From the NCBI GenBank assembly GCA_019637645.1, contig JAHBVH010000037.1, positions 1 to 64,000 on the forward strand: a DNA stretch of 64,000 nt, given 5' to 3'. The position numbers and the translations under genes were made by a program. This stretch comes from Caldilineaceae bacterium (GTDB lineage Bacteria > Chloroflexota > Anaerolineae > Caldilineales > Caldilineaceae). Position 1 is the first letter of the stretch; each line of letters begins with the position of its first letter. Of the stretch, positions 26,326-34,776 are shown one piece after another. The notes beneath the pieces were generated by a model that saw nothing but the letters and a program-made list of their open reading frames with translations, was not told the DNA's origin and searched no databases.

Positions 26326-27024
26326 ATGTCGCTAACCGATCTTAAAAATACCACACCCTGGCCACCCATTGCCATTTTGCGTGATCCACAGTGGGTTCAG
26401 TCGGCGGCCTTCGATCTTCTACGCGTCTTTCAGAAAAGCACCGGCCAGGAAAAAGCGGAAGCCTTTTCGGCGCTTTATAACCGCTATTGCCAAAGTCTAT
26501 GGGATTATATCTACCGTCAGGTAGATGGCGCTGAAGCGGATGCCAAGGACATCTTTGGTCAAGTCTGGCTGGTCGCGGTGGAAGAGCTGCAAACTTTCCA
26601 TTATCGATTGGATACCATGGCTGATGATCCGTTGCGCGCTTGGCTTTTTCGTTGTGCCGCTAATCGCATTAAACAATTCTACCGAGAGAAACGTAGCCAA
26701 GCGCCGCTTGATCTGGTGGAGGGCTTTTTGCTGGCTCGCCTTTCTGGTATGGATACGGCTCTCTATGAACTCTTTGCGCCAACTGTCAAAAGCCAAGCCG
26801 GTGATCTGCTCTATGCTGCCACCAAAGACCTGACGCCAGAGCAGAAGGTAATTTTACGCCTGCGCTATCATGGCAGTATGTCCTTTGCCGAGATTGGCAC
26901 TTATCTTGGTAAGAGTGAAGGCTCTGTGAAAGTGCAACATCATCGGCTGCTTAAAAAGCTACGTACCTTATTGGAACAAGTAATTCCCTCACCGGGCGGC
27001 TGGACCATGGCCGACGATGGCTAG
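26326..27024 (+). CDS. ECF-type RNA polymerase sigma factor
   Basis: 232 residues. Sigma-70 region 2 spans about 40-125 (ALYNRYCQSLWDYIYRQ, then AKDIFGQVWLVAVEEL and WLFRCAANRIKQFYREKR). Region 4 (about 165-222) is a helix-turn-helix: LTPEQKVILRLRYHGSMSF, then IGTYLGKSEGSVKVQHHRL. It directs RNA polymerase to alternative promoters. The next gene encodes a membrane-anchored HTH protein in the usual place of an anti-sigma factor. Its targets may include the adjacent transporter cluster (inference). Confidence 0.9.
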   Translation: MSLTDLKNTTPWPPIAILRDPQWVQSAAFDLLRVFQKSTGQEKAEAFSALYNRYCQSLWDYIYRQVDGAEADAKDIFGQVWLVAVEELQTFHYRLDTMADDPLRAWLFRCAANRIKQFYREKRSQAPLDLVEGFLLARLSGMDTALYELFAPTVKSQAGDLLYAATKDLTPEQKVILRLRYHGSMSFAEIGTYLGKSEGSVKVQHHRLLKKLRTLLEQVIPSPGGWTMADDG

Positions 27025-27068
27025 CGCGGGAGCGCACTGGATACTGCGGGCGAGATGGGTTGGGAGCG

Positions 27069-27989
27069 ATGCAAACGAATAGGCAACCACACGAGAAGTT
27101 TATCCAGGAACTAGGCCGCCGATTGGCAACCCAATGGCGCATGCCGCAATCGCTGGCCGAGCAACAAGCGCTTGCTCAGTTGGGGAGCTATGTCGGCAGT
27201 GCGCGTCGCCACGGCCAATTGACACGCGCTGCCTTAGCACAAAAAGTCGGTAAAACCGAAGTTGAAATTTATGCCTTAGAGCATGGTCTATTGCCCTATC
27301 AGGAACTTCATCGCGATTTCGTCAGTAACCTAGCCGCTGCCCTGGATGAAGCGCCAGAGACCTTTCTCCTTCTCTTAGGGCAGCCAAAGCCTGTTGCGCA
27401 TCCCCGGCGCTCCCCTGAAGCTGAATCCTTATGGTTAGGGTCTAAGCGGCGCATCACCGAGGTCATCGCAACAAACTCGAAACGTGTAGACAACGGGAAT
27501 GGCTACTGGCAGAGGCATAATCGACGATACCAGCGCTCTCTAAATTTGATCGATTCCAGCCAAGCGGGTAGACTAATTTCTAGATTGTGGACAGGTAGAT
27601 TGGCTAAGCAGTATGGTAGCTTGCGCGGCAGTATCATTATTGCTGCGTTAGTTTGCTTGCTACTCATCTGTGTTAACACTTACAGTTTATCAAATCGCTT
27701 TGGTACACAATCGGAAGGGCAAGCATCAACCCTATCTACACAGCTAATTGTTTCCCCCACCCATGAAGCTTCAGATAGATATCTACTTGATTCGATGACC
27801 GTCATTTCCGGAGCATTACCACATCAGCCAGCAAAAGCCATGACCAAAGCAATCGTTTATCCTGAAGTTGCTGCTTACCCTGCCTCTGCGCAGACTGCAA
27901 CCGCTGGCGTGCACCTATCATCCGCCGTAATCGAAGTGCAGCGGTGTGACATTCGAGTGGCAGGGCGGTTTGCCCTCTGCCGGATCTAG
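27069..27989 (+). CDS. Membrane-anchored helix-turn-helix protein, possible sigma regulator
   Basis: 306 residues. An N-terminal XRE-like HTH is visible around residues 45-95 (LTRAALAQKVGKTEVEIYALEHG). A basic linker, a single transmembrane helix near 192-212 (IIIAALVCLLLICVNTYSL) and an ~90-residue outer tail follow. HTH plus one membrane span is seen in RodZ-like and anti-sigma-like regulators. Position 44 bases after the sigma gene suggests it controls that sigma, but no zinc-binding anti-sigma motif is present. ATG 27069 is preferred to TTG 27060. Confidence 0.72.
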   Translation: MQTNRQPHEKFIQELGRRLATQWRMPQSLAEQQALAQLGSYVGSARRHGQLTRAALAQKVGKTEVEIYALEHGLLPYQELHRDFVSNLAAALDEAPETFLLLLGQPKPVAHPRRSPEAESLWLGSKRRITEVIATNSKRVDNGNGYWQRHNRRYQRSLNLIDSSQAGRLISRLWTGRLAKQYGSLRGSIIIAALVCLLLICVNTYSLSNRFGTQSEGQASTLSTQLIVSPTHEASDRYLLDSMTVISGALPHQPAKAMTKAIVYPEVAAYPASAQTATAGVHLSSAVIEVQRCDIRVAGRFALCRI

Positions 27990-28219
27990 GGCGGCAGCTA
28001 CCGAGCCGAGATGACCTATGGTCGTAACCCAGAAGGGTTGCTGGTCATTCTGTTGCTGAAGAATCAAAAGTAAGTCTTCTGAAGAACCATCTGTTTCTCA
28101 CTTATGAGTTGACCGTATTGCTTGGGCATGCTTACCGCTTGAGTAAACCAAATCCAGGTGGTGTGTATTCTCAACTCATGAGCTAAGTTCTATTCACAAG
28201 TCAAAAGGAGTAGCTTAAC

Positions 28220-30136
28220 ATGAAAACAAAAAGTTTTTCGCTGTTGGCCATCCTGGTGGTAGTCGCTTTGGCCTTTAGCGCCTGTACCCCACCAAGCGGT
28301 ACACTACCAGGGGCGGGCACGGGTGATACCGCAGCCGGCCCAATCGATGATCTGAGCCAACCTCACCCATCCTTGAGCGACCCACGTGTGCGCCAAGCGA
28401 TTGCCCATTGTATCGATCGCGATGCGCTGATCTCTTCCGTCTACACCTACGTGCCGGATGATGTCAAAGCTAGCCTGCGCATGGACAGCTTCCTGCCCAA
28501 AGATCACTGGGCCTACAGCGGTCCTTATCAGGATTACGAATATAGCGTCGAGCAAGGCGGCGCGCTGTTGGATGAAGCGGGTTGGACCTGGCCCGAAGAT
28601 TCTGCCTACCGTGTCAATGCAGATGGTGATGCCCTCGAACTGACCCTCACCACCACCAACGCCCAATTCCGCCAGACTTGGGCTGCCGTGGTCGAACAGC
28701 AGCTCGGTGAGTGTGGGATCCTTCTCATTCGCCAACACACCCCAGCTTCTTGGTGGTTCGGTGATACCACCGGTCTTGCCCGGCGTGACTTTGAATTAGG
28801 CGCTTTTGCGTGGGTTGGTCAGGCTGACCCCGGTGGTCGCACCCTCTATGCCTGTGACCAAATTCCGACGCCCAGCAATAACTGGGAAGGTCAGAATGGT
28901 ATGGGGTGGTGTAATCCGCTTGCCAGCCAAAACATCATCATCGCCACCAATACCCTGGAGCGCGATGCCCGTATTGCCGCCTACAACATTGTCCAAGAAG
29001 AATTTGCCAAGGACATGGTCTCCTTGCCGCTCTTCCAACGTGCCGAAGCGGAAGCCTGGAGCTTGAATCTGGAAGGGCTCGTCACCGACCCGACCGAATA
29101 TGGGACAGCCAGTGCGGCGAACTGGACCCTAACCGATGGTGGTGACACCATTGTGCTAGGCTTCTCCCAGGAGCCAGCCTCTATGTTTACCTTGGTAGAA
29201 AGTGCGGCTGTGCAACGCCAAATTGCCCAGATGGGGATTGGTGTCGCCACCACACAATATAGCTATGACTATCAGGCTGTGCTGCAAGAGGAGTTGAGCA
29301 CAATTGAATCTGGCTTGGCCACCAATGAATTGGTTCCTGTGACGGCTGGTGACATTGTGTATGGCGCAGATGGTAGCCCTGTCGAGCTGGCAGAGGGTGT
29401 CGAAGTCTTGGTCGATGGCGAAGTGGTGGCCTATGACGGTACGAGCGAACTGGAATTACCCCAATTGGTCGTCACCTATAAATTCAAGCCCTATACTTGG
29501 AGCGACGGTACCCCTGGCTCGATCGATGACTTCCGCCTGGGTATACAGATCAAGTGTGACCGCCAATCTGGCGCAACTACCTTTAATGGTTGTGAGACCT
29601 TTGGGACCGAAGAAGATGTTCTAAGCAATGTTACCTTCAGTGATAGCGCACTGGAATACACGATTAAGTACTGGCCTGGTGTGCAAGATCCTGGCTACTA
29701 TGTGGCGCCGTTCTCACTCACCGATGAGCCCGTTTACCCCAGCCATCGGGTCTTGAGCGATGGCCGCAACCTGCGTGATGTGCCTGCGGTTGAGTGGACA
29801 ACATTGCCCGAAATTGCCGAAAGCCCACTGAGCTTTGGCCCCTTCATGATTACCGAATGGATCAAAGGTCAGAGCCTGACTTTGGAAGCCAACCCCTACT
29901 ATGAAGGGGGGACCGGTGCCCAGAAGATCATTGTCCTCTTCATCCCTGACACCAATCAGGCCGTTGCCCAACTGCTGAGTGGTGATGTGGACTATGTCGA
30001 AAAAGCTACCTTGGCCGGTGGTGCTGAAGTACAGTTGGTGGCGGATGCTGCCGAACAAGGCACCGTGAATTTCGAGATCATTCCTAGCCCCACTTGGGAA
30101 CATATCGACATGAACCTGTTTGTCAAAGAGAAGTAA
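28220..30136 (+). CDS. Oligopeptide ABC transporter substrate-binding lipoprotein, apparently circularly permuted
   Basis: 638 residues. Signal peptide with lipobox FSAC (Cys22). Residues ~49-302 match the C-terminal half of family 5 solute-binding proteins: DPRVRQAIAHCIDRDAL (54-70), LLDEAGW, YACDQIPTPSNNWEGQN, LPLFQR, DPTEYGT. Residues ~303-634 match the N-terminal half: GFSQEPASMFTLVESAA (314-330), WSDGTP (427-432), SFGPFMITEW, IPDTNQAVAQLLSGDVDY, and end at SPTWEHIDMNL, which normally leads into DPRVRQ. Nothing obvious is lost, so it looks like a full domain with moved termini. RBS AAAAGGAGT precedes ATG 28220. It heads a complete permease-ATPase set. The rest of 27990-28219 holds an ATGAGTTGA/TCAACTCAT inverted repeat. 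Confidence 0.88.
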   Translation: MKTKSFSLLAILVVVALAFSACTPPSGTLPGAGTGDTAAGPIDDLSQPHPSLSDPRVRQAIAHCIDRDALISSVYTYVPDDVKASLRMDSFLPKDHWAYSGPYQDYEYSVEQGGALLDEAGWTWPEDSAYRVNADGDALELTLTTTNAQFRQTWAAVVEQQLGECGILLIRQHTPASWWFGDTTGLARRDFELGAFAWVGQADPGGRTLYACDQIPTPSNNWEGQNGMGWCNPLASQNIIIATNTLERDARIAAYNIVQEEFAKDMVSLPLFQRAEAEAWSLNLEGLVTDPTEYGTASAANWTLTDGGDTIVLGFSQEPASMFTLVESAAVQRQIAQMGIGVATTQYSYDYQAVLQEELSTIESGLATNELVPVTAGDIVYGADGSPVELAEGVEVLVDGEVVAYDGTSELELPQLVVTYKFKPYTWSDGTPGSIDDFRLGIQIKCDRQSGATTFNGCETFGTEEDVLSNVTFSDSALEYTIKYWPGVQDPGYYVAPFSLTDEPVYPSHRVLSDGRNLRDVPAVEWTTLPEIAESPLSFGPFMITEWIKGQSLTLEANPYYEGGTGAQKIIVLFIPDTNQAVAQLLSGDVDYVEKATLAGGAEVQLVADAAEQGTVNFEIIPSPTWEHIDMNLFVKEK

Positions 30137-30228: not shown

Positions 30229-30288
30229 TAACCGCTTGTCGCGACCGCGTTGTCTCGCCACCGCACCACTTGCGCGAAAGGAATCACC

Positions 30289-31470
30289 ATGACAGCCTAC
30301 CTGATTCGCCGCTTTATCCAAATGATCTTTGTGATTCTTTTGGTCGCGGTGGCTACCTACTTTTTATTTAGTATCTCGCCTGGTGGTCCGCTCACCGGTC
30401 TGCGCCAATCCCAACAGCGGCTTGATGCAGAAGATATCGCGCGCATTCGCGCCCAATATGAACTGGATCTCTATTGGCCGGTTCGTTTCTCTCGTTGGCT
30501 GATTGGCGTGCCAGATGGCCCGTTGATGATCGGTGGGCGTGAACTCTTTGCCAATGTTCCCGTTGGCTGCTATTTGCGCAACATGAATACCGACGTCTGT
30601 GAAGACTATGTATACATGTCAGAGATCCCGGCATTACACCCAGCCGTGCGCAGTAGCAAAGGCATTTTGCGTGGCGATTTTGGTAAGTCAACCACAGTGC
30701 GGATTGGGCAACCGGTCTTTAATGAGATTATGTCGCGGTTGCCCGCTACCTTGCAATTGGGAATTGGCTCGCTCTTCCTTTCGCTGCTCATCGGGGTGCC
30801 GATTGGGATTGTTGGCGCGGTACGCCAGTATTCGCGCTTTGACTATTTTGTCACCAGCCTCTCCTTCTTTGGTTCGGCAATGCCGGTCTTTTTCTTTGGC
30901 ATTTTGCTGATTCTTCTCTTTTCCGTGACGCCCGTTTTCTTGGCCGATCGCTATCCTTGGTTGCCTCGTTTGCCTTCGGGGTCGTTGGAAGCGGTGCGCG
31001 ATTATACCATTGCCTCTTGGCTGCCCACGATCAAGGCCGGCTCCTTGGCGGATCGCGCCTTGCATTTTATTATGCCGCTCTTTGTGTTGACCTTTTTTAA
31101 TACTGCACAATGGAGCCGTTTTGTTCGGGCTTCGATGCTAGAAGTCCTGCGCCAAGATTATGTGCGCACGGCTCGTGCCAAAGGTTTGATCGAACGCATT
31201 GTGGTGATGAAACATGCCCTGCGTAATGCGTTGATTCCTTTCGTCACCATCTTTGTGCTGAGCCTACCGGGCATCTTTGCGGGTGCCATCATTACCGAAA
31301 CGATCTTTTCTTGGCCGGGCATGGGGCGCCTCTATTGGGATGCCCTCAACCGCAGTGATTATCCGATCGCGTTGGCTGTCATCTTTATCACCGGTGTGCT
31401 CACCGTGATCGCGACCTTGTTAGGCGACATTCTATACACGATTGTTGATCCGCGCATTAAATTTTCCTAA
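30289..31470 (+). CDS. Peptide ABC transporter permease (DppB/OppB-like)
   Basis: 393 residues. An N-terminal helix (IQMIFVILLVAVATYFLF) and a long outer loop precede the six-helix transport domain. The EAA-type loop contacting the ATPase is DYVRTARAKGLIERIVVMKH, then ALRNALIPF. The region ETIFSWPGMGRL is typical of DppB. ATG 30289 has GAAAGGAATCACC before it; an upstream TTG (30250) is in frame but has no ribosome site. It pairs with the next permease. Confidence 0.93.
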   Translation: MTAYLIRRFIQMIFVILLVAVATYFLFSISPGGPLTGLRQSQQRLDAEDIARIRAQYELDLYWPVRFSRWLIGVPDGPLMIGGRELFANVPVGCYLRNMNTDVCEDYVYMSEIPALHPAVRSSKGILRGDFGKSTTVRIGQPVFNEIMSRLPATLQLGIGSLFLSLLIGVPIGIVGAVRQYSRFDYFVTSLSFFGSAMPVFFFGILLILLFSVTPVFLADRYPWLPRLPSGSLEAVRDYTIASWLPTIKAGSLADRALHFIMPLFVLTFFNTAQWSRFVRASMLEVLRQDYVRTARAKGLIERIVVMKHALRNALIPFVTIFVLSLPGIFAGAIITETIFSWPGMGRLYWDALNRSDYPIALAVIFITGVLTVIATLLGDILYTIVDPRIKFS

Positions 31471-31518: not shown

Positions 31519-32520
31519 ATGGCTACGGCAGCTGGCACGGTAACGGCAACCAACAAAATCATGGCGACGAAACCGGAAAGCCAGTTTCAGGTCGTACTAC
31601 GGCGCTTTCTGCGCCATCGTATGGCGGTGATTTCGTTGTTCATTATTGGCTTCCTCTTGTTAATTTCCTTGCTTGCGCCGGTGATCACCACCTTTCCGCG
31701 TGATCAAATTGATATTAGTAGCCCCGAACGACCAGCGCCGCCTGGCATTGTTGACAGCCAAGGCCGTACCCATTGGTTTGGCATTGATAACCTAGGCCGT
31801 GATCTCTTCACGCGGGTGCTCTATGCAGGCCGGATCTCCTTGGTCATTGCCTTGGCGGTGACCCTGATTGCCGAAACATTAGGCGTGATCGTCGGTGCCT
31901 TTGCTGGCTATTATGGGGGCTGGGTCGATGCCTTTATCTCGCGCCTCATTGAATTTATGTTGGCGTTGCCGCAGTTGCCCATTCTATTGATCCTCTCCAA
32001 GCTGACCTTGGACTATGGCGAGGTCATCCCACTGCCTGCCTTTCTCCGGCGTACGATTAGCGCTATCCTCTTGACCCCGGAGCGTGAGTCGCAACAGGTA
32101 GTGTTATTGATTATGATCTTGATCCTCTTTGGTTGGCTGGGGGCGGCGCGGCTCATGCGTGGGATGGCGCTCTCTTTGCGGAGCCAGGACTTTGTCGAAT
32201 CTTTGCGAGCCTTTGGGGCTTCGGATGTACGCATTATCTTCGGCCACATCATTACCAACGGGTTGGCACCCATTTGGGTCAATGCCACCCTGAGCCTCGG
32301 TGGCGTGATCATTACCGAGGCGGCGCTCAGCTTTTTGGGCTTGGGGATTCAAGATCCAACGCCAACCTGGGGCAATATGTTGGCACAATCGCAAAACTAT
32401 ATGTTCCGTCATCCTTGGTTGCCGTTGGTGCCGGGAATTCCGCTGGTGTTGGTCTCGCTCGCCTTTAACTTTGTCGGTGACGGCCTGCGCGATGCGCTCG
32501 ATCCACGCCTCAAACGATAA
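31519..32520 (+). CDS. Peptide ABC transporter permease (DppC/OppC-like)
   Basis: 333 residues. N-terminal cytoplasmic segment, a helix at about 38-58 (AVISLFIIGFLLLISLLAP), then GIDNLGRDLFTRVLYAGRIS, the DppC hallmark, and the five-helix permease domain with an EAA-like loop around FVESLRAFGASDVRIIFGHI. It ends VGDGLRDALDPRLKR. RBS AAGGAATAAAGGA precedes ATG 31519. It forms the heterodimeric channel with the preceding permease. Confidence 0.93.
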   Translation: MATAAGTVTATNKIMATKPESQFQVVLRRFLRHRMAVISLFIIGFLLLISLLAPVITTFPRDQIDISSPERPAPPGIVDSQGRTHWFGIDNLGRDLFTRVLYAGRISLVIALAVTLIAETLGVIVGAFAGYYGGWVDAFISRLIEFMLALPQLPILLILSKLTLDYGEVIPLPAFLRRTISAILLTPERESQQVVLLIMILILFGWLGAARLMRGMALSLRSQDFVESLRAFGASDVRIIFGHIITNGLAPIWVNATLSLGGVIITEAALSFLGLGIQDPTPTWGNMLAQSQNYMFRHPWLPLVPGIPLVLVSLAFNFVGDGLRDALDPRLKR

Positions 32521-32638: not shown

Positions 32639-33697
32639 ATGACAACTGCAAATGCATTACTGGAAGTACACGGGCTAAAAACCTATTTTTACACCGAAGA
32701 AGGGGTGGTTCAGGCCATTAATGGCGTTGATTTCACGATCAAAAAAGGTGAAATCATGGGCTTGGTTGGTGAATCGGGCAGTGGCAAAAGTGTCACCTCG
32801 TTGTCCATCATGCGCCTCTTGGCCGGTTCGGGCCAGATTGTCGATGGGAAAGTCTTGCTTGATGGCCGCGATTTGGTGCAAATGGTGGATGAGCAATTGG
32901 TAAAGCTGCGTGGCAATGAGATTTCCATGATCTTCCAGCAGCCAACCAGCTGTCTGAATCCGGTCTTTCGCATTGGCGACCAAATTGCCGAGACCATTAT
33001 GGTCCATCAGCGGCTCGACAAACGGGCGGCGTGGCAACAAGCGGTGGAGATGCTGCGCAAAGTGGGGATTCCTGCGCCGGAAAAACGGGCCACCGCCTTC
33101 CCCCATGAAATTTCTGGGGGGCAGGCCCAGCGGGTGATGATTGCCATGGCCCTTGCTTGCCAACCCCGCTTGTTGATTGCCGATGAGCCGACGACGGCGC
33201 TGGATGTGACGATTCAAGCCCAGATTCTGGATTTAATGCGCCAACTGCGTGATGAAACCAGTACGGCGATCCTCTTGATCACTCATGATATGGGGGTCAT
33301 TGCCGAAATGTGCGATTCGGTTGCGGTGATGTATGCCGGCCAAATTGTGGAATATACTAGCGTTGCCCAGATCTTTGAAAAACCCCTGCATCCCTATACC
33401 GAAGGGCTCTTGGCCGCCATTCCCATCTTGGGGGAGATGAAAGAGACGCTAGCCGTCATTCCCGGTTCGGTGCCCAACTTGATCAATCTGCCCCCTGGCT
33501 GTAAATTTGCCCCACGCTGTCCTTATGTCAAAGAAGCAATTTGCACGGTCCAAACGCCCGAACTGCGCGAGGTGACCCCAGGGCATCAGGCCCGTTGCTT
33601 TATGCGTTTTCCCGAAACTGCCCACTATTGGGCCGGCACGGAAAAGGCCGATTGGCAGTTCGAGGGGGACGAAGTGTTGGTAAGTTCTAATCCATGA
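32639..33697 (+). CDS. Peptide ABC transporter ATP-binding protein (DppD-like)
   Basis: 352 residues. Walker [19 protein letters not shown], signature ISGGQAQR (Ala in place of the usual Arg) and Walker [13 protein letters not shown]. The C-terminal tail has [15 protein letters not shown]. It powers the permease pair encoded just upstream, together with the next gene. No good Shine-Dalgarno is visible because the 14-bp array sits there; AAAAGAAAT is the nearest purine run. Confidence 0.93.
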
Positions 33698-33726: not shown

Positions 33727-34776
33727 ATGCCAATTTCACTTAAATCTGCTGCGAAAGACTTATTAGTCGTTGACGATCTGAAAACCTACTTCCCTATTCG
33801 TGCCGGGTTGCTCCAGCGTGTCGTGGCCCAAGTGAAAGCGGTGGATGGGGTTAGTTTTAAAATTCGGGAAGGCGAAACTTTTGGCCTAGTTGGCGAATCG
33901 GGCTGTGGGAAAACCACGGTGGGACGTACCATTCTGCGTCTCCAACCAGCGACGGCTGGTTCCGTCTTTTTTGATGGCGAAGATGTCTTTGCCAAGCGGG
34001 GCGGGGATCTAAAGGCGCTCCGCCGCAATATGCAGATTGTTTTCCAAGATCCCTACTCTTCGCTGGATCCGCGCGTCCCTGTGGGTGAGACCATTGCCGA
34101 AGGGTTAGAGATTCATGGGGTGAGTAACCGGCGCGAGCGCCAAGAAGTGGTGCTGGAGATGCTGGACAAAGTTGGGCTCAATCCCTACCATGCCAACCGC
34201 TATCCCCACGAATTTTCGGGCGGGCAACGCCAACGCATTGGGATTGCCCGCGCGCTGGCGCTGCGTCCCAAATTTATTATTTGTGATGAGCCCGTCTCGG
34301 CGTTAGATGTATCGATCCAATCGCAAATTCTCAACCTACTCCGTGATCTTTCGCAAGAATTCGGGTTAACCTATCTCTTTATTGCCCATAATTTGAGCGT
34401 GGTCGAACATATCAGTGACCGCGTTGGCGTTATGTATCTTGGTTCGTTGGTGGAAGTTGCCAATCGCCAAGAGATCTACCATAATCCTCTACACCCCTAT
34501 ACTCAAGCGCTCCTTTCGGCCATTCCAATGCCCAAACCTGGCCAGAAACGGCAGCGGATCATGTTGCGCGGCGAGATCCCTTCGCCCATTAATCCGCCTA
34601 GTGGGTGTCGTTTTCATACGCGCTGTCCGTTTGCCGCGGATATTTGTCAGCAAGTGGTGCCACCTCTCGAAGAAAAAGCCCCTGGTCACTGGGCGGCCTG
34701 TCATTTTGTCGAAACGGTAGGTAGTACAGCGCAGCTACGACCCACGGTTGTGCACCAAGCCAACAGTGTGGCCTAG
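33727..34776 (+). CDS. Peptide ABC transporter ATP-binding protein (DppF-like)
   Basis: 349 residues. Walker [21 protein letters not shown], signature [15 protein letters not shown] and Walker [13 protein letters not shown], followed by the C-terminal [14 protein letters not shown] tail. It completes a five-gene system with the permuted binding protein, two permeases and the preceding ATPase. The ~230-base gap that follows, before the next binding protein, shows no gene. Confidence 0.94.

Follow-up and report, generated by a model that had tools for sequence, protein, structure and literature searches.

A contig from a Caldilineaceae bacterium (GenBank assembly GCA_019637645.1, contig JAHBVH010000037.1) carries a gene for a binding protein with its two halves in reversed order. 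The gene lies at positions 28,220 to 30,136 of the 64,000-nucleotide stretch that was analysed (the window), next to genes for a DppBCDF-type importer. The most probable reading, at about 0.87, is that its product is a naturally occurring, circularly permuted cluster C (SBP family 5) binding lipoprotein and serves as the substrate-capturing subunit of the adjoining importer. An earlier note had proposed that a single family 5 binding protein, equipped with a lipoprotein signal, has been circularly permuted, and the idea has held up. The order of the sequence, two structure models and the keeping of that order within the Chloroflexota all point the same way.

Order of the two halves

The open reading frame (ORF) specifies 638 amino acids. 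Its landmarks are where the earlier note put them, with the box DPRVRQAIAHCIDR at residue 54, WSDG only later, at residue 427, and SPTWEHIDMNL, at residue 623, closing the chain. Three paralogs in the window (35006, 39184 and 48620) also run as described: WSDG comes first (at 169, 163 and 133) and the VR..A..D-type box only afterwards (364, 372 and 346). The halves of the permuted protein meet at about residues 302-306, in keeping with the original estimate of about 302.

Profile searches lead to the same picture. Pfam SBP_bac_5 (PF00496) scores 130.2 bits against a curated cut-off of 32.4, in two stretches of the ORF, the best of which aligns residues 49-205 with profile positions 210-353. 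With phmmer, residues 539-634 align with positions 210-311 of the T. thermophilus protein 2d5w and residues 51-278 with positions 321-554. In other words, the order is not collinear with the family profile. The C-terminal half precedes the N-terminal half, so the protein is classed as a permuted variant rather than a plain SBP_bac_5 member. Profiles of the separate halves give 435 and 472 bits, the window sequence being one of the 14 rows in each, and the reversed order is far beyond chance. None of the NCBIfam models for named binding proteins (Opp4A, DppA, NikA and others) scores above its cut-off; the best is Opp4A, with 80.8 bits where 650 are required. L087, a canonical relative, likewise falls below the Opp4A cut-off (214.6 against 650), so this shortfall is not due to the permutation alone. 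Routine annotation hides the swap because Pfam just reports SBP_bac_5.

Structure models

Structure prediction was the check named in the earlier note, and in the whole-chain model the halves do pack as one protein (pLDDT 89.9, predicted template modelling score (pTM) 0.85). In a structure search the complementary halves match residues 273-520 and 18-282 of B. subtilis AppA (1xoc), and each half is modelled with the SBP_bac_5/cluster C fold. The strand at residues 616-631 is formed in the full model and absent from a model of the fragment alone. With Foldseek, the template modelling score of the whole chain by query length is 0.24-0.31 among the matches listed, an uninformative value of the kind that a sequential aligner should give. 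The structure matches listed are SBP family 5 type proteins, and the absence of Type I (cluster B) proteins from such lists does not amount to an exclusion. The halves are thus predicted to form an ordinary two-lobed fold.

What if the two lobes of a working unit come from different chains? In such a domain-swapped dimer, each N-lobe would be paired with a C-lobe from another chain. The shortness of the join speaks for such an arrangement, and the single-chain model is compatible with it. However, the pTM above was reached with a single chain, and the old ends are joined directly, as expected for neighbours in one domain. The dimer is therefore quite improbable.

The join, the cut and conserved cysteines

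The earlier note thought that both original ends looked complete. Between the two half profiles there are 0-1 residues in 195 of 199 permuted database proteins, with profile borders that we set at 303 and 305. In canonical chains a median of 2 residues lies beyond the same C-half profile end (197 proteins). The short canonical tails and the 0-1 residue gap together indicate that the old ends were joined without a linker.

The new chain ends fall at one conserved point. There are 200 permuted database proteins, 159 of which bear the WEHxDxN-type motif. In 157 of these the new C-terminus lies 3-6 residues past the motif; the remaining two have about 150 extra residues. In the six canonical relatives inspected, the RxRQAI box comes behind the WEHxDxN motif, either directly or after a short loop. 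Of the 249 permuted proteins whose N-terminus could be used, 224 have a lipobox by our own motif rule (9 further N-termini were unusable). The 25 misses include some truncated starts and some proteins with an apparent membrane span instead.

Another shared character is a set of cysteines. Pairs 64/165 and 212/231 are both present in all 46 permuted rows of an alignment. In its 61 canonical rows each pair is all-or-none, occurring in 22 and 18 rows, respectively, and never together. This pattern points to two disulfides, which we infer for the permuted proteins from sequence. A third pair, 446/458, is nearly specific to the permuted proteins (45 of 46 permuted against 2 of 61 canonical rows).

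Recurrence among proteins and genomes

A search of 5.8 billion proteins returned 1544 relatives at E ≤0.001, and the permuted order is found in all 120 of them that were listed, including P0001, the window's own protein. A second survey, with a single genome per species for 84,980 species of bacteria and archaea, collected only those relatives in which one of six 8-residue patterns occurs exactly. The permuted order occurs in 49 of the 50 loci found (three partial: L040, L041 and L043). The fiftieth, L046, has one half only and lies at a contig edge. A search from the divergent member L112 gave 82 permuted proteins (80 of them new) and 38 canonical ones among the 120 listed.

To follow the join itself, a profile of 101 residues and 21 rows (A3) was run against 400 genomes sampled from the phylum of Chloroflexus islandicus. 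It gave 46 near-full-length matches in 42 genomes (E ≤6e-17), and the 42 are a lower bound since at most 12 candidates were scored per genome and some genomes may lack parts. In an additional genome, G266, the A3 match falls in two frames. The weaker matches among those listed lie mostly on one or the other side of the join, which is the behaviour expected of canonical proteins. About one in ten of the genomes sampled from this phylum has the permuted order.

In the pattern-based survey, which was not extended to more divergent permuted forms in other phyla, all 50 loci carry Chloroflexota titles save L034 (labelled Planctomycetota) and L045 (labelled Gracilibacteria). L034 is probably a mislabelled bin because it pairs with Thermoflexus L036, with support of 99 and 100 in two trees of the separate halves (see below). 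The organism names shown in both protein searches are all Chloroflexota, most rows being nameless. None of 72,556 plasmid records matches the 101-residue join.

A misassembled tandem pair was one of the outcomes that the earlier note named as refuting its idea, and frameshift or gene-calling errors belong with it. One fact in favour of an artefact is that the database copy P0001 starts at ATC and loses the signal. However, the order recurs in isolate genomes and many independent assemblies. The same join is present in L016, L017 and L028, which are not marked as metagenome-assembled genomes (MAGs), in L014, a MAG chromosome of 4.69 Mb, and in the 42 sampled genomes. Records with the permuted gene that are not marked as MAGs include those of Chloroflexus islandicus, Oscillochloris sp. 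ZM17-4 and Bellilinea caldifistulae. An artefact is thus extremely improbable. Misassembly was rejected for the family as a whole on this recurrence in other assemblies, which is evidence from relatives and not from the window locus.

Some single-half or frame-broken copies of permuted genes were encountered too (L111, L114 and L115). They are possibly decaying genes or assembly errors.

Trees and origin

Quick trees without bootstrap were made for each half, twice. For the first pair, 28 rows were selected from the 80 permuted ORFs (a total that counts duplicates) and 44 from the 54 canonical ones. The second pair used 46 permuted and 61 canonical rows, with three long canonical rows omitted and 38 database proteins added. 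In both half trees the permuted proteins form one side of one branch, with a Shimodaira-Hasegawa-like approximate likelihood ratio (SH-aLRT) support of 100. This branch lies beside or among Chloroflexota canonical groups, many with an insert of about 65 residues that the window protein also has. For the insert, the N-half profile matches from position ≤7 in 28 of 54 canonical ORFs. Its part is missing in six permuted database proteins (P0259, P0260, P0269, P0270, P0272 and P0280).

These trees bear on whether the protein is a permutant at all. A chimera of the C-terminal half of one binding protein and the N-terminal half of another would mimic a permutation. The sister of the permuted branch is a weak trichotomy in the C-half tree and is resolved differently in the N-half tree, so that two related donors are indistinguishable from one. 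Nevertheless, both trees give a single fully supported branch, by or among the same Chloroflexota canonical groups, and both halves pack in one confident model. A chimera is therefore unlikely, and a circular permutation is preferred.

How might the permutation have come about? A tandem pair that lost its outer halves, as suggested in the earlier note, would explain it. Such an origin is compatible with the finding of a canonical relative directly upstream of the permuted gene, 309-335 bp off, in L035, L037 and L048. No tandem intermediates (C-N-C or N-C-N) were found among 358 listed database proteins, a set with lengths of at most 1.75 times the query in which double-length forms would be missed. 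Repeated half-profile matches in this set are one half split in pieces. The operons provide a further clue. Their order is canonical-B-C-D-F-canonical in L137, L138 and L140 and permuted-B-C-D-F-canonical in L105 and L106, and the comparison suggests an older operon whose first place was taken over by the permuted gene.

The operon and the partner permease

The lipobox motif and the position in the operon link a secreted lipoprotein to a BCDF importer. The linkage extends to the relatives. In 50 of 55 permuted loci the permuted gene is directly followed, within 600 bp, by a DppB gene, and the B-C-D-F order is found in 31 of the 34 of those 50 loci that have 5.2 kb of room. The 55 loci are those with at least 1.3 kb downstream (4 were too short), omitting same-genome duplicates (L051-L086) and the broken L115. 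They are mutually related, and these counts are not of independent events. The five loci without DppB in this place are L020, L030, L047, L112 and L113. DppB is next in 7 of 20 fetched canonical contexts (L130, L131, L137, L138, L140, L141 and L144).

The DppB proteins themselves differ. DppB ORFs beside permuted genes have 392-517 amino acids (median 404, n=50), whereas those beside canonical relatives have 320-377 (n=7). The difference can be seen in the stretch from PGGP to GDxG. It has 93-202 residues and at least two cysteines in the 44 of 50 permuted-side proteins that show both motifs, and 42-63 residues and no cysteine in the 6 of 7 canonical-side proteins that do. An observation that counts against a clean rule comes from 20 other DppB homologues. 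Six of these show both motifs, with stretches of 40, 50, 51, 71, 106 and 106 residues, and three of the six have at least two cysteines. The permuted-side DppB proteins form one clade (support 98) that also holds 2 of the 20 other homologues, whose neighbours are unclassed. The nearest proteins outside the clade are DppB proteins adjoining canonical relatives. The DppB change is one shared evolutionary difference, which shows co-inheritance but not necessity.

In E. coli, a periplasmic scoop motif of DppB, at residues 41-42 or so, inserts into the DppA cleft (PMC12136057). The enlarged stretch would sit in the same loop.

How the permuted protein may work

As in the usual working of a substrate catcher, ligand would be bound in the cleft and the protein would dock on DppB/DppC. 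The ligand need not be a peptide. The lipid tether would be attached where the old C-terminal lobe begins, close to the hinge. One covalent strand (268-281), which we take from the canonical fold to be the hinge crossing kept continuous, would still link the lobes. The other hinge strand (616-631) would be a free C-terminus, held without a peptide bond. Hinge and anchor mechanics would then be altered, as the earlier note supposed.

A further reading, although a doubtful one, is that these proteins define a distinct importer type. Here the tether would enter at the hinge, the C-terminal strand would be a releasable non-covalent latch and the cysteine-bearing DppB stretch would have evolved to dock the altered hinge or cleft. 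If so, attachment at the hinge would suit signalling too (compare the relatives with a kinase or a membrane span before the permuted domain, below).

Features of the locus and variant relatives

The features of the gene and its operon are collected in Table 1. The AAAGGAG stretch supports ATG 28220 as the start. The database copy P0001 (597 amino acids) begins instead at an ATC, window position 28343, inside the linker and without the lipoprotein signal, which is probably a wrong start call. A scan gave 0 terminators and 3 promoter-like sites, where shuffled sequences have 1.5 on average, which is too little for any conclusion. Just upstream of the permuted gene are a gene with sigma-70 region 4 matches (26326-27024) and one for a protein without a Pfam match (27060-27989).

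Table 1. Features of the permuted gene and the importer genes that follow it (window positions)
Feature	Positions	Strand	Basis or remark
Ribosome-binding-site-like AAAGGAG	28204..28210	+	9 nt 5' of ATG; motif recognised by eye
Lipoprotein signal, residues 1-22, lipobox FSAC, Cys22	28220..28285	+	Sequence motif
Low-complexity linker, residues 23-46	28286..28357	+	pLDDT <50 at residues 15-42
Canonical C-terminal half, residues 47-303, now leading	28358..29128	+	
Predicted strand, residues 268-281	29021..29062	+	DSSP of model
Join, old C-terminus to old mature N-terminus, residues about 303-306	29126..29137	+	Half-profile borders
Canonical N-terminal half, residues 305-634, now trailing	29132..30121	+	
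Beta-rich insert of about 65 residues, 5' of WSDG	29267..29464	+	Alignment; shared with some canonical relatives
C-terminal strand, residues 616-631, taken as other hinge crossing, now free end	30065..30112	+	Full model
DppB-type permease, same operon	30250..31470	+	Pfam BPD_transp_1; true start probably the later ATG of MTAY
Enlarged DppB stretch, 94 residues, PGGP to GDFG, with Cys	30391..30672	+	Taken as first periplasmic loop; topology inferred
DppC-type permease	31519..32520	+	Pfam BPD_transp_1, OppC_N
DppD-type ATPase	32639..33697	+	Pfam ABC_tran, oligo_HPY
DppF-type ATPase	33727..34776	+	Pfam ABC_tran, oligo_HPY

Several relatives have other architectures. In P0285 (994 amino acids; one cluster only) a Ser/Thr-type kinase domain is followed by a single membrane span, recognised by eye, and a complete permuted binding domain. 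Going by these domains, it is a candidate receptor kinase with a permuted sensor. In P0257, P0261, P0263, P0264 and P0265 the permuted domain is preceded by a short N-terminal stretch and what looks like a membrane span, in place of a lipobox; by eye, these N-termini are reminiscent of anti-sigma-type anchors. Four proteins (L020:7770-10220, L030:5726-8188, P0303 and P0308) have the permuted domain and about 150 extra C-terminal residues. Within the sequence at hand, no importer genes were found adjoining the permuted genes of L020 and L030. Beside the permuted gene of L112, a 954-amino acid protein (L112:5116-7980) combines a phosphonate-type binding domain with a canonical family 5 domain behind it.

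Comparison with known systems

The nearest canonical sequences found are those of the Chloroflexota (such as L087, L098-L100, L103, L059 and L064), many with the 65-residue insert. They differ from the permuted proteins in having the canonical order, a DppB stretch of 42-63 residues (6 of 6 measurable) and no 446/458 pair (absent in 59 of 61 rows). Among cluster C/SBP_bac_5 proteins, AppA (1xoc) and 2d5w match both halves by sequence and model, and the lipoprotein nature and importer operon are common to this group and the window protein. Unlike in AppA and 2d5w, however, the halves of the window protein are reversed, the canonical termini are joined and the cut is between the WEHxDxN motif and the RxRQAI box.

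No report of a circular permutation in cluster C proteins was found in the literature searched, which mostly did not extend to subscription papers. To our knowledge, a naturally occurring circular permutation has been published for one importer binding protein, TpMglB-2 (Tp0684) of Treponema pallidum. The authors of that report proposed a permuted Type I subclass, 'Type Ic / Cluster Bc' (PMC4990184). Like the window protein, TpMglB-2 is a naturally permuted, tethered binding protein of an ATP-binding cassette importer. However, as described there, it has a Type I glucose-binding fold in which three N-lobe strands have been relocated to the end and there is an additional, fourth hinge crossing (PMC4990184). 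The change in the window protein is not a move of the first three N-lobe strands to the C-terminus. Instead, the whole C-terminal half stands at the front of a cluster C protein.

The permuted family appears to belong to another fold class than TpMglB-2, spans several classes of one phylum and is cut where the canonical chain crosses between the lobes. The family is a natural experiment in which the effects of hinge connectivity and of lipid-tether position on closure and docking can be studied. The permutation accompanies a difference in the partner permease, and a conserved cut in the hinge region is worth the attention of specialists.
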